Shown here in pieces: positions 16,105-55,997 of a DNA stretch of 64,000 nucleotides (positions are counted from its first letter, which is position 1; each line of letters starts with the position of its first letter). The notes under the pieces were generated by a model. The model was given only the letters and a program-made list of their open reading frames with translations. It was not told the origin of the DNA and ran no database searches. This stretch comes from Gammaproteobacteria bacterium (GTDB lineage Bacteria > Pseudomonadota > Gammaproteobacteria > Ga0077536): assembly GCA_021773835.1 (NCBI GenBank), contig JAJFJQ010000070.1, forward strand, positions 1 through 64,000, written 5' to 3'. Position numbers and translations under genes: made by a program.

Positions 16105-16132
16105 TTGATTACCCAGGCGGATCCGGCTAGCC

Positions 16133-31109: not shown

Positions 31110-32002
31110 GTGTTGAATGTCCCCGGTGGTGGCTCGTAGGTATTTAGTGCTTGACCAGGAAAGAGTCGATTAAGCGACACCTCCTCTGAAGCGACGGCCA
31201 CGAGGTCGTCGTTCTCGTACATGATCATGGGCTTCACTGCCAGACGATCTTTCGCATATCCGATTTCGTCCTTGGTCGACACCAAAAATGAGAAGGTCCC
31301 ATCGAGATCGTCGATTGACGTTTCCAATGCGGCGCGAAGCTCGACCCCTTGCGAAAGTTTGTCGGCCAAATACACCGCGATCAATTCGCTATCGTTATCC
31401 GTGGTGAATTCGAAACCGCGCTGCTCCAAGCGACGCCGCATTTTCCAATAATTGGTGATCTGTCCGTTGTGGACAATCGCGATGTCACCAAAGCCGGTCG
31501 CCCAAAACGGATGTGCGGACTCAGGCTTTACTTCTGACTCGGTCGCCAGGCGAACATGCCCGAGACCGTGGCTCCCTTTGTACTCATGGACGTTATAGCT
31601 ATCGTCCACGTCGTGGGCGCTACCAACATCTTTGATGATCTCGAGGCTAGACCCGATAGAGACAACCTTCGCCGCGTGTTCCATCGCATAGGCGAACGGC
31701 TTGATGTCGCCGGCGTAGGCAACCGTCAGACGGTAATTTGTGCCAATGAGTTCTTCGCTAATTATCGAAGCCTCATATTTCGCTAAAGCCTCTTTTATTC
31801 GGCCAATTGCCGTGTCTGCATCGCTGTCTTCGCCGACAATGAAGCGCAAGCGTAGGTGGCCCGGTTCAGTGGGGCCGTATAACGCAAACCCAGTTGAATC
31901 CGGCCCGCGATGTTGACAGCCATCGAGCATGGAAATAAGCGCCTCGCCCGCGGAACGAGTCGCACCTTCGTCCTTGAACAAGATCCCGGCAATTCCACAC
32001 AT
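31091..32002 (-). CDS. Class II glutamine amidotransferase (GltB N-domain/GlxB-like)
   Basis: This 303-residue protein starts MCGIAGILFKDEG, so C2 is the N-terminal nucleophile that frees ammonia from glutamine. GCQHRGPDSTGFALY, GLGHVRLATES, IVHNGQITNYWKMRRRL and TDNDSELIAVYLADKL are class II amidotransferase hallmarks. It corresponds to the first domain of GltB as a separate protein, as in GlxB. It is first in an operon with the FMN and flavoprotein subunits; CTAAGGAG precedes the ATG. The product may be glutamate or an N-substituted glutamate, which the sequence cannot settle. Confidence 0.85.
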   Translation of the reverse strand: MCGIAGILFKDEGATRSAGEALISMLDGCQHRGPDSTGFALYGPTEPGHLRLRFIVGEDSDADTAIGRIKEALAKYEASIISEELIGTNYRLTVAYAGDIKPFAYAMEHAAKVVSIGSSLEIIKDVGSAHDVDDSYNVHEYKGSHGLGHVRLATESEVKPESAHPFWATGFGDIAIVHNGQITNYWKMRRRLEQRGFEFTTDNDSELIAVYLADKLSQGVELRAALETSIDDLDGTFSFLVSTKDEIGYAKDRLAVKPMIMYENDDLVAVASEEVSLNRLFPGQALNTYEPPPGTFNTWSRSI

Positions 32003-32080
32003 GCGCTACTCCTTAGTTACCAATACGGTGTATTCAGCCATCCTACATCGAGAATCAGACTGGGCACAGTTCGATTAAAA

Positions 32081-32136
32081 GTTGCATGTGATGCAACTCT
32101 GTTTATTAAGGTACAACTGCAGGTAGAGCCGGTCAA
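32081..32136 (-). promoter_or_regulatory. Sigma-70-like promoter with downstream palindromic operator
   Basis: On the minus strand, TTGACC (32136-32131) and TACCTT (32113-32108) are separated by 17 bp and fit -35 and -10 boxes. Directly downstream lies a perfect inverted repeat, GTTGCAT/ATGCAAC with a 3-bp spacer (32097-32081), covering the expected first transcribed bases. A repressor bound there would block the amidotransferase operon. No regulator gene is adjacent, so its identity is unknown. Confidence 0.5.
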
Positions 32137-32170
32137 GGCGCGAACGGGGCTCGATTGGTACTTTAGGTCG

Positions 32171-33499
32171 CTACAAGGCTGGTCCAAGTTCGAGCGCACT
32201 GCCGTCACTAAACCGGGACAAGCGAAAGCGACCGAGATCGTGACCAAGCGGGTTGCCCAAGACCATGTCTGCCATCACGCGACCGGCGCCAGGTCCAATG
32301 CCAAAACCGTGTCCGCTGAAGCCGGCGGCGACAAAAAGCCCCGGCAGTCCCGTGACGCTATCCATCACTGGCACGATATCTGGGGTGGTATCGATCATCC
32401 CGGCCCACGCCTGCTCCAGCCGGATGTCCGCCAAGGCGGGTAACTGCGCCTTAAGCTGGACCCGTATCTGGCCAAGCGCTGCCGCTGAAGGTTCGGGATC
32501 AAGCACGCGCGTACGTTCAAACGGCGAGATGTCGTCGCCGGACCAACTTTTGGTTCCGCGCATGCGCGCGAACAGCCCAGCGCCGAAGCGCAGCGACATA
32601 TCTTTGCGGGCACGCACAATACTTGGGACAAATTGAGGCAAATAGCGAAAGCTGTCGCGACCAATAAAATGTTCGAAATTGCCACTCGCCGCGAGTGTGT
32701 AGCCACCATCGTTACGGCGGCGAAAGGCAAGACCGTGACTTGCCGCATTACCTTTGAAAATATCCGGCGCCTCAGTGGTGCGCGCCACAGTCGCGCGCAC
32801 GGTCAATTGCGGGAAGTCGTGTCCTAGGTTGCGGCAAAATAAGGAGCCCCAGGCGCCGCCGGCACAAACGACACTAGTACATTTAATCAGACCGTGCTCC
32901 GTCACGACGCCGGTCACGCGACCTGCAGCAATATCCACCGTCCGTACCGCGCAATTCTCAGTGATCGTCACCCCTTTTTTGCGCAAAGCCCGGGCGATCG
33001 CTGGAACCGCGACAAACGGCTCGGCACGTGCATCACTGGGTGTATAGCTCGCACCTATCCATTTCGAGGAATCTTCCGTAATGATTTGCGCAAGCTCGCT
33101 AGCACCTATCATCCGCGTATCAAGCTCGTGATCACGGGCAATCGATAACCATCGCTCACGCTCGGCAAGTTCGGCATCCGTTTCAGCGAGATACATCACG
33201 CCGTGCTGGGCAAAACCGATGTCTTCGTCAAGCTCGCCGGCTATCGATTTCCAATGTTCGATACTCTCGATAACGATCGGCAATTCCGCCCGATCGCGCC
33301 CATGCTTTCGGATCCATCCCCAATTACGACTCGATTGTTCGCCCGCAACACGACCCTTCTCGCACACGGCGACCGAGACGCCTTGCTGCGCGAGAAACCA
33401 CGCCGTGGATATGCCGATAATGCCGGCGCCAATGACGACAACATCGACCGCACTTGGTAACGGGTCGGCAAAGTTGATGGGTGAGCTTTCGTTTAGCAT
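32171..33499 (-). CDS. FAD-dependent amino-acid/amine oxidase (DAO family)
   Basis: This 442-residue flavoprotein belongs to the DadA/sarcosine-oxidase-like group. The start has VVIGAGIIGISTAWFLAQQG, then SSRNWGWIRKHGRD, which is seen in a branch of DAO-type oxidases. GVVTEHG and CTSVVCAGGAWGS form the middle FAD contacts, and GLFVAAGFSGHGFGIGPGAGRVMADM is the C-terminal FAD motif. It oxidises an amino or N-alkyl amino acid, giving an imine that hydrolyses to an oxo acid. It lies 168 bp upstream of the glutamate-synthase-like operon, same strand. Together they suggest amine nitrogen handling through glutamate. Confidence 0.8.
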   Translation of the reverse strand: MLNESSPINFADPLPSAVDVVVIGAGIIGISTAWFLAQQGVSVAVCEKGRVAGEQSSRNWGWIRKHGRDRAELPIVIESIEHWKSIAGELDEDIGFAQHGVMYLAETDAELAERERWLSIARDHELDTRMIGASELAQIITEDSSKWIGASYTPSDARAEPFVAVPAIARALRKKGVTITENCAVRTVDIAAGRVTGVVTEHGLIKCTSVVCAGGAWGSLFCRNLGHDFPQLTVRATVARTTEAPDIFKGNAASHGLAFRRRNDGGYTLAASGNFEHFIGRDSFRYLPQFVPSIVRARKDMSLRFGAGLFARMRGTKSWSGDDISPFERTRVLDPEPSAAALGQIRVQLKAQLPALADIRLEQAWAGMIDTTPDIVPVMDSVTGLPGLFVAAGFSGHGFGIGPGAGRVMADMVLGNPLGHDLGRFRLSRFSDGSALELGPAL

Positions 33500-39744: not shown

Positions 39745-40641
39745 ATGTCACAAGCCCAACTCGATGAGGTCATAAACGATATTGCCAGAACGTTTGGTGC
39801 ATGGGACGACGATACACCCCTTGATGTCATGCGTAAGGGCTGGGACGGCCTCTTCTCGGACGTGGAGTATACCGTTGGTGCGAGCGCCGAGCCGGTAGAC
39901 GCAGACGGCGTCACCGCGGAATGGATCACTGCGCCGGGTGCCCGGTCGGATCGGGCTGTCGTGTATCTGCACGGCGGCGGTTACATCATGGGCTCCGTCA
40001 ATTCGCACCGCGATATGTGCGAACGGCTCTCACGGGAAGCCCAAGCACGGGTCCTCGCACTTGATTACCGTCTCGCGCCAGAGCACCCGTTTCCGGCAGC
40101 ATTGGAAGACTCTATCGCGGCATACCGGTGGTTGTTAAAGGAAGGTATCGAGCCACAGCATATCGCCATCGGCGGCGACTCAGCTGGCGGAGGATTGACC
40201 TTCGCCACCCTGGTCTCGCTCCGGGACGCCGGCGATCCGCTTCCAGGGTGCGCCATTCCGCTATCGCCCTGGGTTGAATTCGAAGGCACCGGCGACTCCA
40301 TTACTTCCCGTGCAGACATTGATCCAATGGTGCGCCAAGACCTCGACCTGAAGATGGGTAAGGCCTATCTCGACGGCGGCGACTTACGAAACCCGCTTGC
40401 AGCACCGATTTATGCCGATCTCCACGGCTTGCCGCCCTTATTCATCCAGGTCGGTGAGCGCGAGATCCTATTTGACGACTCATCGCGCATGGCCGACAAG
40501 GCAACTCAGGCCGGGGTTGAGGTGACCTTGCGCGAATGGCCGGGAATGATCCACGTATGGCAGATCTTTGCCAGCCGTCTCGACGAAGGCCAGGCGGCCA
40601 TAGAGGAACTCGGTGCGTTCGTGCGCGAGCACATCGGCTAA
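39745..40641 (+). CDS. Alpha/beta hydrolase of the hormone-sensitive lipase family
   Basis: This 298-residue cytoplasmic esterase has HGGG at residues 76-79 (YLHGGGYIMGS), which forms the oxyanion hole, and the nucleophile S146 in GGDSAGGGL. The acidic residue is probably in QVGEREILFDDS and the histidine in GMIHVWQIF. DYRLAPEHPFPAAL is also a family hallmark. It hydrolyses short-chain or small aromatic esters. It stands alone downstream of the broken SRPBCC gene and convergent with the SMP-30 gene. Confidence 0.9.
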   Translation: MSQAQLDEVINDIARTFGAWDDDTPLDVMRKGWDGLFSDVEYTVGASAEPVDADGVTAEWITAPGARSDRAVVYLHGGGYIMGSVNSHRDMCERLSREAQARVLALDYRLAPEHPFPAALEDSIAAYRWLLKEGIEPQHIAIGGDSAGGGLTFATLVSLRDAGDPLPGCAIPLSPWVEFEGTGDSITSRADIDPMVRQDLDLKMGKAYLDGGDLRNPLAAPIYADLHGLPPLFIQVGEREILFDDSSRMADKATQAGVEVTLREWPGMIHVWQIFASRLDEGQAAIEELGAFVREHIG

Positions 40642-40661
40642 ACCTACTTTGTAGATTTAGC
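40637..40661. terminator. Hairpin between convergent genes
   Basis: GCTAAA-C-CTAC and GTAG-A-TTTAGC pair around a TTT loop with one internal mismatch. The hairpin begins on the hydrolase stop codon and lies 40 bp from the end of the convergent SMP-30 gene. There is no T-run, so confidence is moderate. Confidence 0.4.
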
Positions 40662-40703
40662 TCGGGCAACTCGGAGCGATCGACTTCGTTCCGGTTCGGG
40701 CTC

Positions 40704-41708
40704 TCAGTATTTTTCGCCCCAATGCGCCATCGCTAAGCCAGCAACGGGTGATTTAAATTTCGCGATACGGTCGCCAAACAGACTGCCAAGATAAACGGTT
40801 TTTAAATCGTCGCCCGCAAAAGTAATACTCGCGGTCCAGCGCGCGATTGTGCCACCGCAATCCATCAATAAGTCTGTTGTGATCTGCCCCGCCTGGAACG
40901 CCTGATCGATCTTTTCAATGTCGCCGGTTCTGCCATCGTCTAACAGGATCCGGAGTTCGCCTTCTGGGGTCAGGGCAAATACCCGGTCAACCATGACGTG
41001 CGTACCCCATAGATTGCCGTAGCTATCGAAGGTAATGCCGTCGACAAACGCGCCGGTATCGGTAGGACCAAAGATTTCCTTATCGGCGAGATCGCCATTC
41101 GGCTTGATCCGGAACCGCGCGACGTTGCGGCCGCAGGTTTGCGCGACGTAAAGATACTCTTCATTGGCATCGAGCCGGCACTCATTAGCGAAATGGATAT
41201 TCTCGGCTACAACCCGCACACCTTTACCTTCTTCGTATAGCAAGATGCGCCCATCGATGACGTCTTTGCTGATCGATGCCGGCATATAGTCATCAATTAG
41301 AGTCGACACCGTGATCCATAATCGATTTTTGGAATCGCGCACCACGAAGTTGAGTTTCCCAGGCCATGCACCATCGTTCAGCGTCTCGAACATGACGGTG
41401 GTTTCGCCGTTGCGCTTCATTCTTTCCATGAAGTTCGTACCGAAATTTGCGATTAGCAGATCGCCATTATCAGCGATCGCCATACCGTTCGGCACCGTGC
41501 CTTCTATCGCACCACCGGTTTCGAAGCGTTGCGCAATAAATTCCTGACTGCCATCTGGGTCGATCCTAACGACGCCACCACGTTCATCGGCCGACCACAC
41601 GGTGCCGTCTTTCTCAGCAAGGATACATTCGGGTCGTTTTAAATCCTTCCCGATGTGGGTGATCGAATTCGGATCAATCGTATAGCCATCTATTGGGTTC
41701 GCTGCCAT
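40704..41708 (-). CDS. SMP-30/gluconolactonase/LRE-family protein
   Basis: This 334-residue protein has a six-bladed propeller pattern of the SMP-30/gluconolactonase family. Visible parts are RPECILAEKDGTVWSADERGGVVRI, VPNGMAIADNGDLLIANFG, NECRLDANEEYLYVAQTCGRNVARF and GAFVDGITFDSYGNLWGTHV, which carry the acidic and asparagine metal ligands. It probably hydrolyses a lactone. The ATG at 41708 has AGAGG 8 nt upstream and is preferred to a TTG/ATG-less extension to 41744. It is last in the five-gene minus-strand operon that starts at 46008. Confidence 0.85.
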   Translation of the reverse strand: MAANPIDGYTIDPNSITHIGKDLKRPECILAEKDGTVWSADERGGVVRIDPDGSQEFIAQRFETGGAIEGTVPNGMAIADNGDLLIANFGTNFMERMKRNGETTVMFETLNDGAWPGKLNFVVRDSKNRLWITVSTLIDDYMPASISKDVIDGRILLYEEGKGVRVVAENIHFANECRLDANEEYLYVAQTCGRNVARFRIKPNGDLADKEIFGPTDTGAFVDGITFDSYGNLWGTHVMVDRVFALTPEGELRILLDDGRTGDIEKIDQAFQAGQITTDLLMDCGGTIARWTASITFAGDDLKTVYLGSLFGDRIAKFKSPVAGLAMAHWGEKY

Positions 41709-41747
41709 AGTTTTAGCCTCTTTGATAACTCGCCGTTGGGACAAATT

Positions 41748-42752
41748 TTACACTGCAAATGCCGGCATGATCTCGCGCTGCATGTTCGCAACGGTTTGCA
41801 TCGAAGTCTCAAGCGTGAGATCGCCGAAAGCAAAACGGCCGAGCAGATAGTTCACCCCGGCCTCTTCGATTTCGCGTCCGAGCACCTCCCGCACCATCGG
41901 CGCCGTACCGACAACACAATGCCCTTCGGATCGGGCTTGCTCAAATTTTTCCGGGAAACTTAACGGGATCTCAATATTGTGGATGCGCCACAGATGGAGC
42001 AGGCTCGCCCACCACTTCTCATACGCCGGGGCGGCACATTCGATCGCCTCCTTTTCAGTCCGCGCGATCACAATATGTCGACTCATGCCGATCATCGGTA
42101 GGGGCTCGTCCGCAAAAGCACTATCGGTCCATTCGGCTTTGAAGCGATCGGTCGTTTTCCTGACGACGCTCGCGAGCCCATTCGTAATGATATTCATTTT
42201 GTTGGCAACCGCCGACGCAGCCCGCTCTGGCAGCGCAACGCCGTACCAAAGCGGTGGGTGTGGGCGCTGGAACGGTCTTAGTTCGAGTGGCACATCTTCA
42301 AAGGAAAAATATTTTCCGGCGTAATTTAGTCGATCCGAAGTCAATCCCTGCCGCACGATCGCAATCACTTCCTCGTATTTTTCGCGCGATTCTTCACCGA
42401 CGCCGTAGAAGCCCATCTCGATCGGTGAAACACCGCGGCCGACGCCGATCTCTAGCCGGCCACGACTGAGTTGATCAAGCATGCAGATCTCTTCGATCGC
42501 ACGCAAAGGATGATAAATACTCAGAGTGTAAACCATCGGCCCAAACCGTAATGTCTCGGTCCGCTGCGAGACGGCAGCAAGGAATACGCTTGGCGCCGAT
42601 GCAATGCCAAGCGGTGTGCCGTGGTGTTCGGCCAGGTGGTAGGCATAGAACCCGGCGCGGTCGTAGGCCTCGACGAGTTGTAGGCGGTCACTGAATTGTT
42701 GGGCTAAGTCCAGCCCGTTTCGATCCAGGTGATCAAAAACGCCAAATCGCAT
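41748..42752 (-). CDS. LLM-class flavin-dependent oxidoreductase
   Basis: This 334-residue luciferase-like protein has MRFGVFDHLDRNG, FYAYHLAEHHGTPLG, LDQLSRGRLEIGVGRGVSPIEM near residue 100 and RPHPPLWYGVALPE near residue 165. The family normally uses reduced FMN or F420. It lies 52 bp after mmsA and 39 bp before the SMP-30 gene in the same operon. A second LLM gene at 47349 lies in the divergent half of the cluster, and the two share the AEHH/TEHH and GVGRG/GLGRG motifs. The substrate is unknown. Confidence 0.85.
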   Translation of the reverse strand: MRFGVFDHLDRNGLDLAQQFSDRLQLVEAYDRAGFYAYHLAEHHGTPLGIASAPSVFLAAVSQRTETLRFGPMVYTLSIYHPLRAIEEICMLDQLSRGRLEIGVGRGVSPIEMGFYGVGEESREKYEEVIAIVRQGLTSDRLNYAGKYFSFEDVPLELRPFQRPHPPLWYGVALPERAASAVANKMNIITNGLASVVRKTTDRFKAEWTDSAFADEPLPMIGMSRHIVIARTEKEAIECAAPAYEKWWASLLHLWRIHNIEIPLSFPEKFEQARSEGHCVVGTAPMVREVLGREIEEAGVNYLLGRFAFGDLTLETSMQTVANMQREIMPAFAV

Positions 42753-42803
42753 TTTAATTTCTCAACGTATAATTTATAACGAAGCGCCGATCACTTCAGC
42801 AGC

Positions 42804-44333
42804 TCAACTGCTACTGGGAAACGAGAATTGCGCGGTTTCGCGCACGCCGCCCGACGGCCAGCGCTGGGTAATGGTCTTTCGCCTGGTGTAGAAACGCACA
42901 CTATCGGGGCCGTAGGCGTAAAGATCGCCGAACAACGATCGCTTCCACCCACCAAAACTGTGCGCCGATACCGGCACCGGTAACGCAACATTGACGCCAA
43001 CCATACCGACTTTAATATTGTCGGTGAAGTAGCGTGCCGCCTCGCCGTCGCGGGTAAAGATGCAAGTGCCGTTGCCAAATTCATGCGCATCGATCAATTG
43101 CATGGCTTCTTCTTGAGAACCGGCACGCAGAACACACAGCACCGGCCCAAAGATTTCTTCGTTGTAGATCCGCATCGACGGCTTCACCTGGTCGAACAGA
43201 CATGCGCCCAGGAAGTAACCATTTTCTCTGCCCGCAACCTGGAGTCCGCGGCCATCAGCCACCAGCTCGGCACCCTCTTCGATCCCGAGATCTACATAGG
43301 ACCGCACCTTCTGCAATTGCTCCGCTGTGACTAAAGGCCCCATGTCATTGGCGTTATCCGTACCATCGCCGATTTTCAAGTCGCCGATCTGGGCTTGCAG
43401 TTTGCCGACAACGTCGTTGGCGGTATCGTTCCCAACGCAAACAACTGCCGATATCGCCATACAGCGCTCGCCACAGGATCCATAAGCCGCACCCATGATC
43501 GCGCTCACGGCGTTATCGATATCAGCATCCGGCATGACGACTGCATGATTTTTAGCGCCGCCTAAGGCCTGCACCCGCTTCCCGTTGGCAGTCCCAGTTT
43601 GGTAGATATATTCAGCGATCGGTGTTGACCCAACGAAACTCAATGCCACCACCCGCTGATCGTGCAGCAGTGCATCGACCGCTTCCTTGTCGCCATTAAC
43701 GACATTAAACACACCGTCGGGTAGGCCCGCTTCGCTGAACAGCTGGGCTAAAAAGATCGCTGCACCCGGATCTTTCTCAGACGGCTTTAGAATGAATGTA
43801 TTTCCGCAGACGATCGCCATCGGATACATCCACATGGGCACCATCGCTGGGAAGTTGAATGGGGTGATACCGGCGACGACGCCGAGTGGCTGGAATTCAG
43901 ACCAAGAATCAATCGCAGGTCCGGCGTTCTTGGAATGTTCACCTTTCAGTAACTCAGGTGCACCGCAGGCGTATTCGACGACTTCGACGCCGCGTCCAAA
44001 TTCCCCCATCGCATCGTTGAGTACCTTGCCGTGTTCTTCGGTGATGCGCGCAACAATCGCATCAGCGTTTTGCTCAAGCAGTTGTTTGTACCGAAACATG
44101 ATCTGGGCACGCTTGACCGGCGGCGTATCGCGCCAAGCAGGGAACGCCGCCTGCGCTGCGGCTACGGCCTCGCCGACGGTCTTGGTGCTCGCCATCGCGA
44201 CCTGGCGAACATCCTCGCCGGTTGCAGGATTCGATACCGGTAGCAGTCGCTCGCGGTCAGGGACATCTGCCCCATTGATGTAATGCCCAACAATATCGTG
44301 TTGATCGGCAACCGCGGAAATTTGTGTATTCAT
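42804..44333 (-). CDS. mmsA: CoA-acylating (methyl)malonate-semialdehyde dehydrogenase
   Basis: This 509-residue aldehyde dehydrogenase matches MmsA/IolA. It shows GHYINGADVPDRERLLPVSNPATGE at the start, ITPFNFPAMVPMWMYPMAI, LGGAKNHAVVMPDAD and GSCGERCMAISAVV with the catalytic cysteine near residue 290. EEIFGPVLCVLRA is typical of the family. It converts malonate or methylmalonate semialdehyde to acetyl-CoA or propionyl-CoA plus CO2 with NAD and CoA. GGAG stands just before the ATG. Within this operon it would be a late step that drains a three-carbon semialdehyde. Confidence 0.92.
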   Translation of the reverse strand: MNTQISAVADQHDIVGHYINGADVPDRERLLPVSNPATGEDVRQVAMASTKTVGEAVAAAQAAFPAWRDTPPVKRAQIMFRYKQLLEQNADAIVARITEEHGKVLNDAMGEFGRGVEVVEYACGAPELLKGEHSKNAGPAIDSWSEFQPLGVVAGITPFNFPAMVPMWMYPMAIVCGNTFILKPSEKDPGAAIFLAQLFSEAGLPDGVFNVVNGDKEAVDALLHDQRVVALSFVGSTPIAEYIYQTGTANGKRVQALGGAKNHAVVMPDADIDNAVSAIMGAAYGSCGERCMAISAVVCVGNDTANDVVGKLQAQIGDLKIGDGTDNANDMGPLVTAEQLQKVRSYVDLGIEEGAELVADGRGLQVAGRENGYFLGACLFDQVKPSMRIYNEEIFGPVLCVLRAGSQEEAMQLIDAHEFGNGTCIFTRDGEAARYFTDNIKVGMVGVNVALPVPVSAHSFGGWKRSLFGDLYAYGPDSVRFYTRRKTITQRWPSGGVRETAQFSFPSSS

Positions 44334-44367
44334 GCTATCTCCAATCGTTATCTCTATGGTCTAGTAT

Positions 44368-45231
44368 TCAATGCTTAATATCTTCAACCGTACTTCGCCG
44401 TAGCTCGCGCCGCTGACTCAGATCGTAACGCCGTCCACGATGTAGCACGGCGCGGTTATCCCAAATTACGAGGTCCCCCGGGCGCCAATGGTGACGATAA
44501 ACGAATTCGCGTTGCGTCGCGTGCTCCAATAGTTCGGCCAACAAGAGCCGTCCCTCTGGCACCGGTCGATCGACAATGCGTTGAGCGTGCACGCCGATAT
44601 ACAAGGTCTTTCGCTTCGACCCTGGATGCTCCCGAACGATCGGCCACTGCACTGGTGGGTATAAGGCCAGATCTGCCTCAGTGTATTGCGCATCATCAAG
44701 CTGCATACGCGAATGGAAGGCCGAATGCTCGGCAATGAGACCCTCGATCTCGGCAACGTTGGCATCCGGTAATGCGTCGAAGGCGGCGCGCATATCGGCA
44801 AATTCCGTCTCGCCTCCATGATCAGTCACGATGCAGGCCAACAATAGTGAGTATTTCGCGGCTGGTTGCTTGAACGAGCTATCGCTATGCCAGAGTTGAT
44901 TTGCGAGCATCGCGACGAGCTTTGGATCGTCACGTTCACGTACTTGGCTGTCGAGATCGACATTCGAGATGTCGATCATGCCGGCCTCCTTGAAACGACT
45001 TTTGGTTTGTAACACCTTTAGCAAGCCCATATCGATTGGACCTAGCGTTCGTGTAAATGCCATCTGTTGTGACTCGTCGAGGATCTGATCGCGAAACACC
45101 AGCACCGCAAATTCGTCCATCGCAGCTTCAACCTCGGCCGCCAGCGAACCGTCGAGCGCCGCGCGCAGATCAATACCTTCTACCTCCGCTGCAAACACCG
45201 GGTGCAGCGGTTTACACTGTAACGACCTCAT
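44368..45231 (-). CDS. TauD/TfdA-family Fe(II)/2-oxoglutarate dioxygenase
   Basis: This 287-residue protein is a 2-oxoglutarate-dependent dioxygenase. H115 and D117 (LWHSDSSF) form the HxD iron motif, and the distal histidine lies in AVLHRGRRYD close to the end, with RRELRR arginines for 2-oxoglutarate. The start VFAAEVEGIDL is typical of the TfdA branch, which cleaves ether, sulphonate or amine side chains by hydroxylation. It lies 12 bp after the racemase-family gene and 34 bp before mmsA. The substrate is unknown. Confidence 0.88.
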   Translation of the reverse strand: MRSLQCKPLHPVFAAEVEGIDLRAALDGSLAAEVEAAMDEFAVLVFRDQILDESQQMAFTRTLGPIDMGLLKVLQTKSRFKEAGMIDISNVDLDSQVRERDDPKLVAMLANQLWHSDSSFKQPAAKYSLLLACIVTDHGGETEFADMRAAFDALPDANVAEIEGLIAEHSAFHSRMQLDDAQYTEADLALYPPVQWPIVREHPGSKRKTLYIGVHAQRIVDRPVPEGRLLLAELLEHATQREFVYRHHWRPGDLVIWDNRAVLHRGRRYDLSQRRELRRSTVEDIKH

Positions 45232-45243
45232 CCGTTCAGATGA

Positions 45244-46008
45244 TCACCCAGCGACACGTTTTCGATCGTCAGCTGGCAATGTACCGAAATCGGTAACGAT
45301 ACCGGTGAACGGCTTGGGTTCCGGATACTTGTACGTTTTCTGTTTACTGGTTTTGCGCCGCATACCAACAATCGCCTCGGCCATCTTGGTCGCGCACACA
45401 ACACCATCGAGAACCGGGATCTCGAGTTCTGCTTCAAGCTCGTCGGCAAAATCGGCGAATCCGGCGCAACCGAGGCAGATCGCCTCCGCGTCGTCTTCGC
45501 TCTTCGCCATACGGCACTCTTCGCGCAGACTTTCCAATGATCCAACTGGAGCGCTTTCGACGTCGAGCACATACAGCGGTGATGTGCGTACCGTGACCTT
45601 ATGACTCAGCCCATAAGCGGCAACCATATCTTCGACGCAGACCTTAAAGCGGGGGATGATGGTGACAATAGAGATCCGCGCGGCCAACATGCAGGCGGTA
45701 TACAGCGACGCCTCGGCGATACCGATAACCGGTTTATCGGTCAATTCACGTGCGGCGTGCAGACCGGGATCGCCATAGCAGGCGATGATGTAGGCATCGT
45801 AATCTCCCGCGGCATCACCTTTTTGAATTTCGTTTAATATCCCGGGCACACACAGGTATTCGTCATAATAGGATTCGATCGAGGCTGGCGCATGCTCTGG
45901 GGTCACCGCCACGACTTCGGTTCCCGGTGATGCGACCGAACGACCGGCGACACCGTCTGCGGCAGTCATTTCTGCGGACGAATTTGGATTGATAATCATA
46001 ATCTTCAT
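45244..46008 (-). CDS. Asp/Glu/hydantoin racemase superfamily protein
   Basis: This 254-residue protein resembles hydantoin racemase (MKIMIINPNSS at the start). Two cysteines stand in the two halves of the active site: C77 in YIIACYGDPG and C181 in ICLGCAGFAD. That is the two-cysteine racemase arrangement also used by maleate cis-trans isomerase in this superfamily. GCGAGGAGC precedes the ATG. It is the first gene of the minus-strand operon and is divergent from the C45 gene. A hydantoin/amino acid racemase or a maleate-isomerase-like role are both possible. Confidence 0.82.
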   Translation of the reverse strand: MKIMIINPNSSAEMTAADGVAGRSVASPGTEVVAVTPEHAPASIESYYDEYLCVPGILNEIQKGDAAGDYDAYIIACYGDPGLHAARELTDKPVIGIAEASLYTACMLAARISIVTIIPRFKVCVEDMVAAYGLSHKVTVRTSPLYVLDVESAPVGSLESLREECRMAKSEDDAEAICLGCAGFADFADELEAELEIPVLDGVVCATKMAEAIVGMRRKTSKQKTYKYPEPKPFTGIVTDFGTLPADDRKRVAG

Positions 46009-46200
46009 CGACTATGCTCCTCGCTACGACGCGGCCTGGACCCGCGGTAGAATACGGGCAGGCGACGGTTAGGATCAGGCTTGGCGGCTAGCGCCACAAC
46101 CTCCGTGCACCGGCGGGATATTGTCGAGTCCCCGTTGGGCGCAGGCCCTAGTGTACGCGCCTGTGGTGAGAATTCGACCCATCCATGTTCGAGGCAAGCC

Positions 46201-47262
46201 ATGACTGCACAGCGCTTCCCCCATTTCACCTTCGCTGGCGATGCACGCAGTCGCGGACTAGCCTACGGGCGTGCACTGGGTGAACGTATCCACGCGACGT
46301 TCGCGGTCTATAACGAGCGATTATTTGCCAAGAGCCACTTGGACGAGCGCGAATTTATGGCGCGGGCTGAACGCGTGCGCTCAATCGTTACCGAATTCAA
46401 TGGCGAATTCGCCGCAGAGCTCGATGCGATAGCCGAAGCCGCAGCGATGCCCAGATGGCAAATCTACTTGCTCAACGCGCGCACCGAAATCCTCAACGCC
46501 GGGGTCGGCGAGTGTACGGCCTTATGTTTCCCCCAAGCAGCGCTGCTCGGGCAAACCTGGGATTGGTTCGATGGCTTTGAAGAACTTACCGTCTTGGTGA
46601 CCTATGAACGCCCGGACGGAAGCCGGATCCTTGCCTTCACCGAGCCCGGCATGCTGGCCAAAATCGGGTTCAATAGTGCCGGTGTCGGGGTGTGCCTTAA
46701 TTTCCTCGACCACCGCCATGTACTCGATGGCTTACCCGTACACCTATTGAGCCGGGCCATACTTGAATGCACGAGCGTCGACGATGCGCGCCGCTCGATA
46801 GAACGCGCGGGCTTCGGAAAATCAAGCCACTTCCTGATCGCCGACGCGACCCACAGCGCGCTTAGTATCGAGTTCATGGGTGCGAGCGCCGCAACTGTCG
46901 ACCCATATCGCGGCGCCTATGTGCATACGAATCATTGTATTTTCCCCGAGGCGCCAGCAGATGCCACTGAGGAAACCTCATCAACGGCACGCCGCTTAGC
47001 ACGCGCGCGTGCGCTGCTCGAATCCGACGACGAGCGGACATTCATCGCACTGAAACGGATCTTGGACGACGAACACGGCGGCGATCTCGCGATCAACAAT
47101 CCATTCCACCCGTCGGCGAACTTCCCTAACGAACGGATCGGCAGCTGCGGGACCTTTATCATGGATCTAAAACGGCGCGAGATGCATGTCCGTAAAGGCC
47201 CTGGGCAGACCAATCCATTTGCCGCCTATGCGCTCGATGGGCCTAAAGAGGCTGCCGCTTGA
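46201..47262 (+). CDS. C45-family Ntn acyltransferase/amidohydrolase
   Basis: This protein of 353 residues resembles isopenicillin-N acyltransferase and related peptidase family C45 proteins. RSRGLAYGRALGERI is the usual start. GVGECTALCFPQ places the autoprocessing and catalytic Cys at residue 105, followed by LLGQTWDW. Family members hydrolyse or transfer acyl groups on amides. The ATG at 46201 is preferred to an upstream in-frame start that adds 40 residues without family character. It starts the plus-strand half of the divergent cluster and is followed by an LLM gene 86 bp on. Confidence 0.82.
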   Translation: MTAQRFPHFTFAGDARSRGLAYGRALGERIHATFAVYNERLFAKSHLDEREFMARAERVRSIVTEFNGEFAAELDAIAEAAAMPRWQIYLLNARTEILNAGVGECTALCFPQAALLGQTWDWFDGFEELTVLVTYERPDGSRILAFTEPGMLAKIGFNSAGVGVCLNFLDHRHVLDGLPVHLLSRAILECTSVDDARRSIERAGFGKSSHFLIADATHSALSIEFMGASAATVDPYRGAYVHTNHCIFPEAPADATEETSSTARRLARARALLESDDERTFIALKRILDDEHGGDLAINNPFHPSANFPNERIGSCGTFIMDLKRREMHVRKGPGQTNPFAAYALDGPKEAAA

Positions 47263-47348
47263 CCGGGGATTGTCGGGGGCGGACCATAGTGCCTTCTACT
47301 GAGCAATCCAGTGTATTGCTTCAGACAAAACTCTAAGGAGTAGTAACG

Positions 47349-48416
47349 ATGGAATTCGGGATAATAATAGTGCCCCAGGTCCGTGACGGTAAGACCGAAC
47401 CATTCGACGAGGTCATGGAACAGATCGTCTACGCCGAGGAGCTCGGCTACGATACGATATGGCTGACTGAACATCATTTCAGCCCGTACGGGCGCGCCGC
47501 CGTTCCTGCGCTCGCGGGCTACGCCATTGCGCGCACCTCGAGGATCCGGATCAGCACGGCGGTAGCCGTGACCTCCTTTCAGCATCCGATCCGCATCGCC
47601 GAAGATTGGGCCACCTTGGATCATCTGTCTGGCGGACGCGTTGATGTCGGGCTCGGTCGTGGTAATCAGCCGGCGGAGTTCAAAAGTTTCGATGTCTCGA
47701 TGGACGAAGCCGATCAGCGATTCACCGAGTCACTTGAGATCTTGCGCTTGGCCTGGACCGAAGAGCAGTTTTCCTACGACGGCCAGTTTTGGCGGATCCC
47801 GGAGACTTCCGTCTTACCAAAACCGCTTACCCAGCCTTATCCACCGTTGTGGCAGGCTGCACTGAGCGACTACACCGTGGAAAAAGTCATTTCGCGCGGT
47901 ATCAATGGATTGATTGGACCATATCTGTGCCCCTATGAAACCTTAAAATCAAACTACTTCGACCCTTGGCATCGTTTGGCGGCAAGCGCAGGACGCACTG
48001 ATCTCAGAATGGCGCACAATGAGTTCGTCTATGTCGGAGAGAGCGATGCACAAGTGAAGGCCGATATTAAAGACTACGTGATGTGGTATGTACGCACGGC
48101 CGCGAAAATTTGGGGCGAGCGGGACCGCAGCAAGGTATCGGCGCAGTTCGCAAACTATAACGACATCCTCGAATGGCTCGACGTCGTACCGTTCGAAGAG
48201 ATCTACAACGACCTCGGCATGTTCGGCACCCCCGATGCGGTCGCGGAAAAAGTCCGTTGGATGCGCGACGAGGGTGGTGTCGATCACTTGATCAACTTTA
48301 TGTGGATTGGCGGCTTCGAACAGGAGAAGGCGCTCAGAAATATGGAGCTGTTTGCCAAAGAAGTCATGCCGCAATTCCAAGAGCCGGCGAGGCAACGTAC
48401 AGCAGCACGGGCCTAG
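47349..48416 (+). CDS. LLM-class flavin-dependent oxidoreductase
   Basis: This 355-residue luciferase-like protein starts MEFGIIIVPQVRDG and has YDTIWLTEHHFSPYG, LDHLSGGRVDVGLGRGNQPAEF near residue 100 and LTQPYPPLWQAALSD near residue 165. The end KEVMPQF is shared with the LLM at 2330. AAGGAGTAG precedes the ATG. Downstream by 20 bp are the alpha/beta hydrolase and then the NicX-like gene. LLM monooxygenases open N-heterocycles in other pathways (RutA on uracil, PyrA on pyridine), so a ring-attacking role is plausible but inferred. Confidence 0.85.
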   Translation: MEFGIIIVPQVRDGKTEPFDEVMEQIVYAEELGYDTIWLTEHHFSPYGRAAVPALAGYAIARTSRIRISTAVAVTSFQHPIRIAEDWATLDHLSGGRVDVGLGRGNQPAEFKSFDVSMDEADQRFTESLEILRLAWTEEQFSYDGQFWRIPETSVLPKPLTQPYPPLWQAALSDYTVEKVISRGINGLIGPYLCPYETLKSNYFDPWHRLAASAGRTDLRMAHNEFVYVGESDAQVKADIKDYVMWYVRTAAKIWGERDRSKVSAQFANYNDILEWLDVVPFEEIYNDLGMFGTPDAVAEKVRWMRDEGGVDHLINFMWIGGFEQEKALRNMELFAKEVMPQFQEPARQRTAARA

Positions 48417-48436
48417 GCCACCATATTGCAGGCGGC

Positions 48437-49219
48437 ATGCCAAAAATAGCTGTAGGCGACATCGCCCTCAATGTGCGCCAATGGGGCGGCGGCGCCCCGG
48501 TCGTGTTGGTCCACGGTCTCGGTATGAGTAGCGACCTGTGGCATCACCAGATCCGACCATTTTCAGAACGCTATCACGTGACCGCCATCGATCTACGCGG
48601 GTTTGGGCGCTCCGATCGACCACATGGCATCGGACTGTATTCGGTCGACAACTTCACCGCCGATATCGCCGGCGTGATCCGCGCATTGGATCTCGATCCG
48701 GTTCATTTCGTCGGCACATCTATGGGGGGCTATTGTGGTATCGCCTTGAGCTTGAGCGCGCCTGAGCTATTGCGGTCCTTGTCGTTGTGCCACACGGCGT
48801 GCCGATCTAGCATTGCTGATGACGTACTCGCTGCCCGCACCGCCGCGCTTAAGAATCAGTCGATGGATGAATACGCAAAACTCGTATCGGCACAGGCACT
48901 CGCGCAGCCTGCCGATCCCATAGTTACCGAGTGGGTGGAAGAACGCGTCGCGAACAATGACCAAGAAGTCTATGCGCAGGTGCTTACCGAAGGCCTCCGC
49001 AGTTTCGACGCAGCCGAGGCCGTGGCGTCAATTCGGCTACCGACGCTCGTGCTCGTTGGTGAGCACGATCGGATAATACCGCCCGAGCGCGGGCGCGATT
49101 TAGCGTCACGCATCCCACACTCGCATCTTGTTGAGATCAACCAGGTCGGGCATCTGAGCTATATGGAACACCCAGAAGCATTTAACGAATCGATTTTGCA
49201 GTTTCTCGCACAGCACTAG
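48437..49219 (+). CDS. Alpha/beta hydrolase (NicD/RutD-like)
   Basis: This 260-residue hydrolase has VVLVHGLGMSSDLW (oxyanion loop), DLRGFGRSDRP, nucleophile S95 in FVGTSMGGYCG, VLVGEHDRIIPPE (acidic residue) and QVGHLSYMEHPE (histidine). It starts at ATG 48437, 20 bp after the LLM stop; an upstream in-frame extension is only the shadow of the LLM gene. In Nic and Rut pathways such an enzyme hydrolyses an N-formyl or carbamoyl intermediate. Its position just before a NicX-like gene supports that type of role, but the family is broad. Confidence 0.85.
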   Translation: MPKIAVGDIALNVRQWGGGAPVVLVHGLGMSSDLWHHQIRPFSERYHVTAIDLRGFGRSDRPHGIGLYSVDNFTADIAGVIRALDLDPVHFVGTSMGGYCGIALSLSAPELLRSLSLCHTACRSSIADDVLAARTAALKNQSMDEYAKLVSAQALAQPADPIVTEWVEERVANNDQEVYAQVLTEGLRSFDAAEAVASIRLPTLVLVGEHDRIIPPERGRDLASRIPHSHLVEINQVGHLSYMEHPEAFNESILQFLAQH

Positions 49220-50400: not shown

Positions 50401-52182
50401 ATGTCCGAATCGAGACGCAAGCTAAGCGCAATACTAAGCGCCGATGTGGTCAGCTATTCCCGTCTCATGGGCGCCGACGAGCAGGCAACGCTCGATACCT
50501 TAAACGCTTACCGCACTGTATTTCGGAATCATATTGCGTTGCACGACGGTCGGGTCGTCGATACGGCTGGTGACAATGTGTTGGCTGTATTCGATAGCGT
50601 TGTCGAGGCGATCGAATGTGCTATTGACGTGCAGTCCGAGATCGAAATCCAAAATGCTGCGCTCGCAGAGGATCGGCGCATGCAGTTTCGGATCGGGGTG
50701 AACCTCGGCGACGTCATTGAGCAAGACGACGGCACCGTGTATGGGGATGGCGTGAATATCGCCGCGCGTCTAGAAAGCCTCGCGTCCCCCGGGGGTATTA
50801 CGCTATCTGGCCAGGTCTACGATTTCGTGGATGGCAAGGTGTCTGCTTCGATGACGTTCATCGGTGAGCACGAGGTCAAAAATATTGTGCGGCCTGTTCA
50901 GGTTTTCCAAATCGAGCAAACGCACGCCAAACGCGAAGAAACAACCGCCGCTGAGCACGTGCCGGTAACCACTACACTTCCGGATAAGCCGTCAATCGCG
51001 GTATTGCCATTCACCAATATGAGCAGTGACTCAAGCGAAGCGTATTTCGCCGACGGCATTAGCGAGGACATCATCACCGAATTATCCCGCTTCCAAGAGC
51101 TGATCGTTATGGCCCGCAATTCGACGTTTGCCTACAAAGACCAAGCGGTGAATATCCAAACGATCGGCTCAGAATTAAATGTCCACTACATACTTGAAGG
51201 TAGCGTGCGTAAAGGTGGCGATCGCGTTCGCGTGACAGCGCAGTTGGTGGAGGCCGCGAGCGGACATCACGTTTGGGCCGAACGCTACGATCGGAAGATT
51301 GAGGACGTGTTTGCTGTGCAAGATGAACTCACAGGCAAAATCGTTGCAACGCTGGTCTCTAAAATGCACGACAGCGAACGCCGTCGTGTCCGCAGCGACG
51401 CGCACACGGAAGATCTTAAGGCGTACGAGCTTGTGCTGCGTGGGCGCGAGCACTGGTATCGCTTTACGAAAAAAGATAACGCTGCGGCACGAGCACTATA
51501 CGAGGACGCGCTTGCAGTTGATCCGGATTACGGACGCGCCTACGCGAGCCTTGCCTGGACTTATATTACCGCCTACAACGAATATTGGACTGACGAACCA
51601 CAAGCAGCTTTAGATAAGGCCTTAGAAGTTGCGCGCCTCGGGGTCGAGGTTAGCCCGTCTTCGCATTCGAATCGACTAGCTTTAGGGCAAGTCTATTTCT
51701 ACCGCAAGCAGCTGGATCGTGCGCTTGAATCCTTGGAGAAAGGCATTGAACTCAACCCTAACGACCCCGACGGCTACGTCTCCCTTGCTACAGTTTTGAG
51801 TCATCGCGGAACACCCGAGCTGGCGCTGGAACGGCTAGATCACGCCTTTGGACTCAATCCCAATCTCAAACAATGGCAACGATCGATATACATCGTCGCC
51901 TATTTCAATGCTCGGCGTTATGGGGATGCCATTGCGGTATGGGATAAGCTAGACGACTCGCCAGTGTATTTTTGCCGCTGGATTGCGGCGACATTTGCCC
52001 ATGCTGGTCGCATAGACGACGCGCACCGGACTGCGCGATTTTATTTAAAGGCCTACCCGAATTTTGATCTTAGCGAGCACCTCTCGCGTATGCCATTCCA
52101 GCGTCCTGAGGACCTCGAGCACTATGCAGCTGGCCTAAAGCTCGCGGGTCTCGATCGAGAAACACAATCGATGCTCGGATGA
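50401..52182 (+). CDS. Class III nucleotidyl cyclase with TolB-like and TPR domains
   Basis: This 593-residue protein has a class III adenylate/guanylate cyclase domain at residues 8-170. LSADVVSYSRLMGADE and VDTAGDNVLAVFDS give the metal-binding aspartates, and GDGVNIAARLESLA the conserved Asn/Arg helix. A TolB-like/FlgO-like middle domain follows (SIAVLPFTNMSSD near residue 200 to about 320) and then five or six TPR motifs. No clear membrane segment is seen. It probably makes cAMP in response to a bound partner. It stands alone between the catabolic cluster and mtd. Confidence 0.85.
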   Translation: MSESRRKLSAILSADVVSYSRLMGADEQATLDTLNAYRTVFRNHIALHDGRVVDTAGDNVLAVFDSVVEAIECAIDVQSEIEIQNAALAEDRRMQFRIGVNLGDVIEQDDGTVYGDGVNIAARLESLASPGGITLSGQVYDFVDGKVSASMTFIGEHEVKNIVRPVQVFQIEQTHAKREETTAAEHVPVTTTLPDKPSIAVLPFTNMSSDSSEAYFADGISEDIITELSRFQELIVMARNSTFAYKDQAVNIQTIGSELNVHYILEGSVRKGGDRVRVTAQLVEAASGHHVWAERYDRKIEDVFAVQDELTGKIVATLVSKMHDSERRRVRSDAHTEDLKAYELVLRGREHWYRFTKKDNAAARALYEDALAVDPDYGRAYASLAWTYITAYNEYWTDEPQAALDKALEVARLGVEVSPSSHSNRLALGQVYFYRKQLDRALESLEKGIELNPNDPDGYVSLATVLSHRGTPELALERLDHAFGLNPNLKQWQRSIYIVAYFNARRYGDAIAVWDKLDDSPVYFCRWIAATFAHAGRIDDAHRTARFYLKAYPNFDLSEHLSRMPFQRPEDLEHYAAGLKLAGLDRETQSMLG

Positions 52183-52304: not shown

Positions 52305-53171
52305 ATGAGCGGTAGTGTATTTAAACTCGGCGTACTGAAACTCGGTTGTATTGGCGCGGCGCCTTTACTTGACCTACTACTAGACGAACGCGCCGACCGC
52401 GACGATCTGGATGTTAGGGCCTTTACCAGCGGCGCAAAATTAGACCCGACTGCGTGCGTCGACGCCACGGCATCGGCACTTGAATACGGCGCCGATCTGA
52501 TGTTGTTGGTTAGCCCCAACGCCGCCCTACCCGGCCCGAAGACCTCACGTGCGAGCATTAGCGCAGCCAACATCCCAATTATTACCGTGTCTGACGGGCC
52601 ATCAAAAAAAGCGTTCTACGAGAAAAATGACGAGGGTGCGACCATCGTCAAGGCCGCTGAAGGCCAAGGTTTTTTTGTACTGCCCTGTGATCCCATGATC
52701 GGCGCGCGCCGCGAATTTCTTGATCCGACAGAAATGTCTCTTTTTAATGCCGACGTTATAAAGGTGCTTGCCGTTACCGGCGTCCTGCGCCTGATCCAAA
52801 CCGAACTAGACCGCGTCATTGAGGAACTAAAAGCCGACGGCACGGCGGACATGCCAAAGGTGAATCTGACGGCCGAAAAGGCCGTTACCGCCGCCGGATT
52901 CGCGAACCCTTACGCGGCAGCTAAGGCGTTGGCGGCGCTGAAGGTGTCGGAGTCCGTCGCCGCGGTCACCACAAAGGGTTGTTTCGTCGAGCAAGACGCG
53001 GACAAATACATCACGCTGGTCGCTGCCGGGCACGAGATGATACGTGCGGCCGCCCGCCTAGCCGACGAAGCACGCGAGCTTGAGAAATCCGGAGATTCGG
53101 TGTTGAGGACGCCGCACTCAAGCGAAGGGAAGACGTTGAGTAAAGTTCGCTTAGGCGACAAACCCGCTTAA
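52305..53171 (+). CDS. mtd: F420-dependent methylene-tetrahydromethanopterin dehydrogenase homologue
   Basis: This 288-residue protein looks like Mtd, known mainly from methanogenic and sulphate-reducing archaea. It oxidises methylene-H4MPT to methenyl-H4MPT with coenzyme F420. Segments that match archaeal Mtd closely are KLGCIGAAP (12-20), DERADRDD (27-34), DPMIGARREFLDP (129-141), LFNADVIKVLAVTG (146-159), SVLRTPH (265-271) and GKTLSK (275-280), along the whole length. Archaeal Mtd has about 275-280 residues. TTAGGA precedes the ATG. Bacteria that carry H4MPT normally use the NADP enzymes MtdA or MtdB. No other C1 or F420 gene is in the window. Confidence 0.88.
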   Translation: MSGSVFKLGVLKLGCIGAAPLLDLLLDERADRDDLDVRAFTSGAKLDPTACVDATASALEYGADLMLLVSPNAALPGPKTSRASISAANIPIITVSDGPSKKAFYEKNDEGATIVKAAEGQGFFVLPCDPMIGARREFLDPTEMSLFNADVIKVLAVTGVLRLIQTELDRVIEELKADGTADMPKVNLTAEKAVTAAGFANPYAAAKALAALKVSESVAAVTTKGCFVEQDADKYITLVAAGHEMIRAAARLADEARELEKSGDSVLRTPHSSEGKTLSKVRLGDKPA

Positions 53172-53268: not shown

Positions 53269-54237
53269 CTATGCGGTCTCGGCTTCGTCAACTGGGTCCG
53301 TTTCGAGACTTTCCATTAATTCATCTAAATCGTCGGCCGTCATCGGCTTCCCGGCTTGCGTTTGCGGGGTCTCAACCACCTCGGCAATATCGTCGTCGTC
53401 ATCGAGCTCTTCGATCATATCGCTGATCAATCCCGGATCGTCGGCCTCACCATCGGAGGATTGCACGTCCTCTGCGTTCTCCGTATAGACAGGCTCGTCA
53501 TCATCGTCGTCGGCCAGCTCCTCGATCATATCGGTCGTTGGATTGGAAGCAACCGGCGAGTCAACACGCTCCTGTGGGGCACCTTCGGCCATGGCAACCG
53601 CCGCCGTCGATGGATCCTCTTGATGGTCGTCATCCAACTCGTTGTCGTCGGAAAGATCGACGCTAAGTAGTGCATCATCGGATGATGCATGCTCGTTTTT
53701 CCCTACGTCGGCAGCAAGATCCTCTTCCGGTTCGATATTGAAGGCGCGATTGTATTCGGCCATCATTTTCTCTAGTACCTGTTTAGTCTCGCACAGTTCC
53801 GTCTCGGCTTGTGACTTGGCCTGCTCGAGCGATTCCGCCGTACCTTTATCCACCATGTTTTTTGGCGTGATGCTGATCCACGGAGCGACAACTTTAGTTA
53901 GCTCGTCATTCAGATCCGAGATCTTGGTGGTCCCACGCCCCAAAAATGCACCGACAACCGCATTGTAGAACGCCTTTTCCCGTTGCATGAATTCATCGAC
54001 TACGGCGGTTAACTCATCGCCTTCGAATTGATATTTTTCTTTAAACACCGTTTGCAAAGCTAAGCTACGCGCATCCTCAGTGTTGCTCACCTTGCTGACT
54101 AGCTCCGTTGCTTGTTCGGTGGATTTGGCCTCGACAGTACGTGCCCCGCGGTAGGCAAAAAATGTTATCACGGTAGCGATAATGCCGAATTCAACCGCTA
54201 ATATTAGAAATGCCGCCTCAAGTGACGTCGTAATCAT
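53269..54237 (-). CDS. Acidic single-pass membrane protein of unknown function
   Basis: This 322-residue protein has one N-terminal membrane helix (about residues 6-26), a helical, probably coiled-coil middle (residues 35-160) and a very acidic tail. The tail holds two copies of the motif DMIEEL(A/D)DDDDD about 50 residues apart, and a diverged third, DDLDELMESLE. No known domain is seen. The ATG at 54237 overlaps the stop of the VWA gene as ATGA, so the two proteins are made together. The repeats look like docking motifs for a partner protein (inference). Confidence 0.65.
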   Translation of the reverse strand: MITTSLEAAFLILAVEFGIIATVITFFAYRGARTVEAKSTEQATELVSKVSNTEDARSLALQTVFKEKYQFEGDELTAVVDEFMQREKAFYNAVVGAFLGRGTTKISDLNDELTKVVAPWISITPKNMVDKGTAESLEQAKSQAETELCETKQVLEKMMAEYNRAFNIEPEEDLAADVGKNEHASSDDALLSVDLSDDNELDDDHQEDPSTAAVAMAEGAPQERVDSPVASNPTTDMIEELADDDDDEPVYTENAEDVQSSDGEADDPGLISDMIEELDDDDDIAEVVETPQTQAGKPMTADDLDELMESLETDPVDEAETA

Positions 54238-55997
54238 TGCAGTACCACCTGGTTTGATGGGATTCGTCGGCGTCGGCCCAGCAATAGCCACACACTACCG
54301 AGAATCGCTGCGATCACGACGTTGCCGATCAGCACCACGGTGCCACTTTGGACCCAATTGATTGGCGCGGGCGCGGGTTCTGCAGTGTCGACTACTTCGG
54401 CCGGTGTTTCGATGCTTATTCCTGCGGTTATTTCCGTTGATAGGGCTGTTGATTTGAAGTTCAACACCCGCCCGCTGGTACTGCGTCCAATGACCCGAGG
54501 CTCGATCCGGTAAACACCGTTCAGAGGTGCGGTTACGGATAGGTTAACTTCGCCATTGGAGAAATCTGGCAGGTCAAATATATCTGTAGATCCATCGGGC
54601 CGTGCAACGAGTACAAACCCAACGAGGGATCCGAGCTCGACTAGGCCTTGTTCAGCACGCGCTACGAAATTGAACGACTGCCCATCGTCCGCTAGGGTAC
54701 TCGTGAACGTAAGCGGCGCACCATGAATCCGCATTTTGGCGCGTTGCTCGCGCTGGAAGGTGCCGCCATCGACCTTTATAAGAAGCTCATACTCACCGCT
54801 AGGCCAGTCAATCAAACGCTCGGTGAAAAAACGTGCTTGTGCGGTATCGAAGTCGATCGGGTACACGTTCGCCTGCTGCCCTTGTGCACCGGTGAGGTGT
54901 AGTTCAGATTTTAATAGTTCTAAGAAATCCTGTCGTACAAGTTGCTCCCCACGCTCGGTAATTCGCGCGCCAATGCTAAGTAATTCATCGGTCAAAACGG
55001 CGGTCGGCAAAGCATCTAGCTCCAGCTTCAGGTCGGTTACAATCAACACTCTGTTGTCCGGGTCGGGATCGGTATTGATCTGCCAAGCACCGGTTTCCGG
55101 GTTGGCTACGGACACGAGGTCGTAACCACTTTCGGCGCGCCAGTTAATGTTGCTGGGTCGTGATTGTTCCTCGATCACCACCCCGCTCGGTGACACGAGC
55201 TGTAGTGGCTCATTCGACTGTCCGCGAAACACAAGCAAGGTCATTTCGCTAATCGATTTGTCGACCTCAAAGCGATTATCAACCAAGGGTACGGAATCAG
55301 GGCTCGCAGCTTGCTCAAACATGTGTAGGAAAACCCGCTGTAAGGCCGTCGAATCTTCGACCTCCTCGGCCCATCCATCTGTGCTCTGGGCAAGCGTTGT
55401 CATTAGCTCACGATCGGAATTCGCCGACAACGAAATCGTATGCAGTTGGGCGCCGTAAGACTTAAGCCGTGCGAGCCCGGGTCCAAGAATGCGTTTTCGC
55501 GATGCAGCGCTGTCCGCAGCCTGCTTCGAAACGTCGACCATCCCGTCGGTCAATAAGATCACGTGGCGGCTATCAGCAACCCCATCGGCCAGATCCCAAT
55601 CACGCGTTGCTGTGCTCAACACAGCTTCGATGTCAGTAAATTGTCCTCGCGAATGGATCTTAAGCGTCGCCTCAGTCGCAGCCGCCTTCCATTCGTGATC
55701 GACCGTCGCGGCTGGAATGAGCTCCTCGACTTGTTCGCTGAAAGCCCATATGCCGGCTGTCGCGCCTTGGGGCATCAATTCGGCCACTAGGCGAACTGCC
55801 GGAATACGGAGATTATGTGGATCGTTGGCCTTCATGCTGCCCGAGACATCGATCAAAATGCGAACGTCTACATCCGTCGCAGACACCGTAATAGTCGCGG
55901 TAGAGATGAGCAGTCCGATTGCGGCCCGGACAACAGTTCTATTTAAGTAATCCAATATTGGACTCGGACAAAATGATCGTAGTGAGATTAACGGCAA
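54234..55997 (-). CDS. VWA-domain exported protein (TIGR03503-like)
   Basis: This 587-residue protein has a signal peptide (about residues 20-40, ending VSA) and a von Willebrand factor A domain. The MIDAS residues are D50, S52 and S54 (LIDVSGSMKAND), with a second metal contact in HVILLTDGMVD near residue 150. The middle holds beta-rich domains. A membrane helix near the end (VVLIGNVVIAAILGSVWLLL) and a cytoplasmic RRRRIP tail anchor it. It resembles the TIGR03503 family of gammaproteobacteria, of unknown role. It is coupled by ATGA overlap to the acidic membrane protein. Confidence 0.82.
   Translation of the reverse strand: MPLISLRSFCPSPILDYLNRTVVRAAIGLLISTATITVSATDVDVRILIDVSGSMKANDPHNLRIPAVRLVAELMPQGATAGIWAFSEQVEELIPAATVDHEWKAAATEATLKIHSRGQFTDIEAVLSTATRDWDLADGVADSRHVILLTDGMVDVSKQAADSAASRKRILGPGLARLKSYGAQLHTISLSANSDRELMTTLAQSTDGWAEEVEDSTALQRVFLHMFEQAASPDSVPLVDNRFEVDKSISEMTLLVFRGQSNEPLQLVSPSGVVIEEQSRPSNINWRAESGYDLVSVANPETGAWQINTDPDPDNRVLIVTDLKLELDALPTAVLTDELLSIGARITERGEQLVRQDFLELLKSELHLTGAQGQQANVYPIDFDTAQARFFTERLIDWPSGEYELLIKVDGGTFQREQRAKMRIHGAPLTFTSTLADDGQSFNFVARAEQGLVELGSLVGFVLVARPDGSTDIFDLPDFSNGEVNLSVTAPLNGVYRIEPRVIGRSTSGRVLNFKSTALSTEITAGISIETPAEVVDTAEPAPAPINWVQSGTVVLIGNVVIAAILGSVWLLLGRRRRIPSNQVVLQ

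Follow-up and report, generated by a model that had tools for sequence, protein, structure and literature searches.

We find that the genome of a gammaproteobacterium contains a full-length gene for an archaeal-type F420-dependent 5,10-methylene-H4MPT dehydrogenase (Mtd), located at positions 52305-53171 (+) of the window, by which we mean the whole stretch of 64,000 nucleotides that was analysed. With a probability of roughly three in four, we suggest that this Mtd, which is probably of a single, Asgard-related origin, works in bacterial H4MPT-dependent formaldehyde oxidation and there charges F420; the activity, the cofactor, the oxidative direction and the fate of the F420H2 are what we infer in this proposal. 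The case is stronger than that made in the preliminary description of this DNA, because the pathway is complete and its usual enzyme is missing.

The mtd open reading frame starts with ATG, codes for 288 amino acids and is assigned by Pfam and NCBIfam profiles, a PDB search, conserved residues and the predicted fold. The product scores 362.9 bits against Pfam PF01993 (MTD) over profile positions 1-273 of 274 (cut-off 25) and 360.1 bits against the NCBIfam equivalog NF002162, F420-dependent methylene-H4MPT dehydrogenase (curated cut-off 297). PF01993 is its only Pfam match, and it does not contain PF09176, the Mpt_N domain of MtdA/MtdB. The sole match in a PDB sequence search was the Methanopyrus kandleri Mtd 1qv9 (E 1.9e-70), and in an alignment of 99 Mtd sequences the protein has the archaeal residue at each of the 50 positions with at least 93% conservation among archaea. 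An AlphaFold2 model, built from 13 sequences, has a pLDDT of 82.6 and gives TM scores of 0.88/0.89 against 1qv9, with no other close structural match. The full-length match to Mtd noted earlier is thus borne out by both profiles, which place the product inside the Mtd family, and by the match to 1qv9, and the open reading frame is a genuine full-length family member. Judged by its sequence, the enzyme is predicted to transfer hydride between F420 and methylene-/methenyl-H4MPT. It resembles the archaeal Mtd (EC 1.5.98.1; PF01993; M. kandleri 1qv9/3iqe) in full-length sequence, near-invariant residues and predicted fold, but it occurs in a bacterium that has a XoxF/Fae pathway; whereas archaeal Mtd serves methanogenesis or archaeal C1 metabolism, the Mtd described here presumably oxidises methylene-H4MPT derived from formaldehyde.

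The gene is resident in the gammaproteobacterial genome, as had been proposed from its bacterial flanks. It sits on a contig of 178 kb, and bacterial genes are found elsewhere in the window (Ham1-like, RNase PH, HemN-type), and therefore this is not an archaeal contaminant contig. The GC, GC3 and codon usage of mtd fall within the range of 50 window genes. The host genome amounts to 6.14 Mb, spread over 74 contigs, with a completeness of 98.2%. Its class was taken from named members of its family, namely Baikal-deep-G149 and SJ420, both labelled Gammaproteobacteria, and UBA981, labelled Proteobacteria. An assembly in 74 contigs could in principle hide a binning artefact, namely an archaeal fragment inside a bacterial MAG, but we regard this as extremely improbable: among the 36 genomes of the order, 22 have Mtd, several of them on contigs of 116-187 kb, and the sequences form a clade separate from all archaeal rows of our tree. 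Contamination is ruled out by this recurrence in relatives together with the size of the contig and the native composition of the gene.

Apparently mtd forms a single-gene unit; the upstream gene ends at 52182 and the downstream gene is convergent. When a conserved neighbourhood was sought in relatives, no window neighbour recurred beside mtd outside G002, a genome of the same genus. The only recurring neighbour (window 53269-54291, -) encodes a protein of 340 aa that matches nothing in Pfam or NCBIfam; it is 51% identical to its counterpart in G002 (L028). In other genera a small number of genes around mtd were inspected and none was a C1 gene, and no Mtd was found in the plasmids of PLSDB. 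Three other regions of the window may be mentioned here. A run of genes at 26626-33499 (-) encodes an FAD oxidoreductase of the sarcosine/glycine oxidase kind, a class-II glutamine amidotransferase, a glutamate-synthase/GXGXG protein and a GltD-like protein with an FMN domain, and is reminiscent of the operons for N-methylglutamate synthase, which might supply C1 units. The region 39745-49219 is catabolic-looking, with two luciferase-like monooxygenases, a TauD-type dioxygenase, an Asp/Glu racemase, an aldehyde dehydrogenase, alpha/beta hydrolases and a C45 autoproteolytic acyltransferase. Finally, a 2-oxoacid:ferredoxin oxidoreductase-like protein lies beside a Fer4/pyridine-nucleotide oxidoreductase at 14281-17974 (+), which is unexpected in an aerobic-looking genome.

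The ancestry of the gene was addressed with a maximum likelihood tree (LG+C20, 99 rows), for which the profile sampling of bacterial Mtd covered only the Pseudomonadota. The 19 Mtds from bacteria fall into a single clade (100/99), and this clade lies within a larger one of 44 rows (100/99) whose remaining 25 rows are archaeal. All 25 belong to the same phylum as G779 and Ca. Sifarchaeum (G780, L013), hence to the Asgard archaea. Other rows from the Asgard phylum, for example those with the Lokiarchaeota record, fall outside the 44-row clade. Within it the bacteria are nested beside particular Asgard genomes (98/92 and 97/78), and when long branches were removed they again formed a single clade with three nearest archaeal rows, the same in number. 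In AU tests, a topology in which those archaea group to the exclusion of the bacteria could not be rejected (p 0.20 and 0.14), and we therefore claim no specific donor. The earlier suggestion that the gene was perhaps acquired from archaea gains support from this grouping of one bacterial clade with Asgard Mtds. A single acquisition by an ancestor of the gammaproteobacterial family is likely from the tree, and the source was probably a subset of the Asgard-phylum archaea or something close to it. One further sequence, L012, whose Mtd is 60% identical, was checked and is archaeal, as its genome encodes the archaeal ribosomal protein L24e and the flanks of the gene encode TackOD1 and longin domains.

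The host is predicted to encode complete F420 synthesis. The genes cofE-cofD-cofC-cofGH, the last a fusion, lie on contig C71 at about 363,900-371,500 (locus L066), and each product scores above the cut-off of its own curated family. A second, divergent fae (L066:18970-19518) follows 2.2 kb downstream and physically links F420 with H4MPT metabolism; similar copies are present in G009, G010 and G393. All 16 family members tested have CofD (14 above the cut-off), and since some of them lack Mtd, F420 must serve further purposes in this family. In G001, G327 and the genera g3 and g5, CofD is present where tested and both Mtd and Fae are missing, F420 being retained for other purposes where the C1 pathway is absent.

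A H4MPT/XoxF cluster is found on a different contig from mtd (C26, about 70,900-94,000; loci L120 and L075). It begins with a XoxF-type PQQ methanol dehydrogenase, a pseudoazurin-like protein, FdhA and a NuoE/NuoF-like FdhB, continues after this formate dehydrogenase with fhcC-fhcD-fhcA-fhcB, RFAP synthase, a MfnD-like ATP-grasp protein and mch, and ends with a MptN-like ligase, a CitG-like protein, fae and a MfnF-like H4MPT-linked protein. The XoxF-type protein (L120:16900-18807) is a PQQ alcohol dehydrogenase of the methanol/ethanol family (TIGR03075, 688 bits vs 480) with an Asp two residues past the catalytic Asp, and we take this D-x-D, here in the motif RDVDTG, to be the mark of the XoxF type. 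Fae, Mch, FhcA, FhcC and FhcD score above curated cut-offs. FhcB (267 bits vs a cut-off of 328) and some cofactor-synthesis proteins fall below equivalog cut-offs and their assignment is backed by position; RFAP synthase is above the subfamily cut-off and below the equivalog one. Read in this way, the cluster encodes the H4MPT route by which bacteria oxidise formaldehyde to formate, with the methylene-H4MPT dehydrogenase as its one missing enzyme. The preliminary description raised a link to the formate that a neighbouring Nic-like route would release; our explanation does without it, as the H4MPT genes are on a contig other than that of mtd, and genomes outside the genus have none of the window's neighbours beside mtd.

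The missing step has a fixed place in relatives. In seven of them (G006, G008, G010, G011, G012, G386 and G394) a gene for a PF09176 protein, which we name mtdB by its position, stands directly upstream of the MfnD-like gene and, in assemblies whose contig extends that far, follows RFAP synthase. No such gene separates the MfnD-like gene from RFAP synthase in the host genome (G000), in G003 of the same genus or in G009, where the two are neighbours; in the host they are 105 bp apart. PF09176 has no match anywhere in the host genome, and the same search found it in 21 of the 36 genomes. G009 retains a PF09176 paralogue elsewhere, and the host is therefore the clearest case of mtdB loss. As mtdB is absent from both cluster and genome, the predicted Mtd is the only methylene-H4MPT dehydrogenase found there; it is possible that the assembly (98% complete, 74 contigs) missed an mtdB, though not at the usual place. 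The MtdB/MtdA proteins of bacterial H4MPT methylotrophs belong to a sequence family unrelated to Mtd and carry out the same reaction of the C1 carrier, the same slot in the pathway for which we propose Mtd. MtdA and MtdB use NAD(P), whereas Mtd uses F420. The absence of PF09176 does leave room for an unrelated, unrecognised NAD(P)-dependent dehydrogenase that fills the gap while Mtd is an accessory enzyme which only balances F420, and the retention of both types in relatives would agree with this. We nevertheless consider such an arrangement quite unlikely, since the place of mtdB is empty in G000, G003 and G009 and the host genome already encodes a known enzyme for exactly this reaction.

In the pathway that we propose, XoxF would oxidise methanol, and demethylations may also feed in. 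Fae would condense the formaldehyde with H4MPT to methylene-H4MPT, and Mtd would pass hydride from this to F420, so that methenyl-H4MPT and F420H2 are formed. Formate would then be released by Mch and the Fhc complex and oxidised by formate dehydrogenase. With mtdB lost in this genome, the methylene-H4MPT step should charge the F420 pool with formaldehyde as the electron donor, and F420H2 would serve reductases. Luciferase-like proteins number four in the window alone, one of them FMN-type by family.

Mtd could also run in the reducing direction. Methenyl-H4MPT would then be reduced by F420H2 to methylene-H4MPT, and assimilation would draw its methylene groups from formate or formyl units, in the manner of archaeal CO2 reduction. 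Archaeal Mtd is reversible and runs that way in CO2-reducing methanogens (PMC8498797). Our search for F420 reducers covered F420:NADP oxidoreductase (Fno) alone and found none above the cut-off in 36 genomes, with matches below 26 bits only, which leaves this possibility some room. However, the XoxF, Fae and formate dehydrogenase encoded beside the pathway genes point to formaldehyde oxidation, and the loss of mtdB with fae, mch and fhc kept needs an oxidative replacement, so that we hold the reducing direction to be unlikely.

The preliminary description had suggested an F420-coupled C1 step with either H4MPT or H4F. The coupling to F420 now has behind it the full cof set and mch, fae and fhcABCD in the same genome, and the choice of carrier can be refined: the partner of Mtd is most probably H4MPT, because Mtd co-occurs with Fae and the mtdB of the pathway itself is missing here. 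Across the 36 genomes of the order, Mtd and Fae are both present in 21 and both absent in 13, and only two are discordant, one genome (57% complete) having Mtd alone and one other Fae alone (Fisher p = 8e-8, a value inflated by shared ancestry). Counting against our proposal, mtd lies outside the H4MPT cluster and has no conserved operon, and the order has no Fno above the cut-off that could act as a sink for F420H2. The distance of mtd from the cluster, and the company of Mtd with a MtdB-type gene in most relatives, would also be expected if Mtd had shifted to a F420-dependent methylene-H4F dehydrogenase, or to another substrate, independent of the H4MPT pathway. We find such a shift improbable: the genome has FolD, so that Mtd is not required for folate metabolism; within the order the presence of Mtd follows that of Fae; none of the near-invariant Mtd residues has changed; and the shift would leave the H4MPT pathway of the host without a dehydrogenase. 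Returning to oxidation of methylene-H4MPT as the role in the host, we add that Mtd may have a separate role in relatives, since most of these keep both genes.

A sample of 369 genomes from the class gave only three Mtd matches above the cut-off, all in the family of the host, and a sample of 398 genomes from the phylum gave only the genome of the window itself. A scan of 84,980 species genomes with the Mtd protein, whose reach is limited to close relatives, returned no other bacterium.

What we describe is thus an established enzyme family that occurs in a new domain and has a predicted new pathway role, its biochemical function being read from homology. Mtd is given for archaea only in a review (PMC8498797), which ascribes F420 reduction in bacteria to Fno, Fgd and Adf. 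Like these enzymes, Mtd in the proposed role would charge the bacterial F420 pool, but its donor would be a formaldehyde-derived C1-pterin, whereas theirs is NADPH, glucose-6-phosphate or an alcohol. Since bacterial F420 reduction is now ascribed to these three enzymes (PMC8498797), a reduction driven by formaldehyde would be new. The titles and abstracts by which we judged the literature, which cover its evolutionary part incompletely and do not establish priority, contain no account of a bacterial Mtd and do not describe bacterial H4MPT methylotrophy and F420 together.

As mtd is resident in a bacterial family, its detection in metagenomes should not be read as a sign of methanogens. That mtdB has been lost from a single constant position in the cluster offers a natural test of functional replacement across domains. 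We lean towards the view, held with less confidence than the role of Mtd in formaldehyde oxidation, that a laterally acquired archaeal Mtd displaced the NAD(P)-dependent MtdB, and that the oxidation of methanol and formaldehyde in these presumably aerobic gammaproteobacteria thereby reduces F420 directly and supplies F420H2-dependent enzymes. Such a pathway would join two cofactor systems, bacterial H4MPT methylotrophy and F420, and would offer a new answer to how F420 may be reduced in bacteria without a recognisable Fno.
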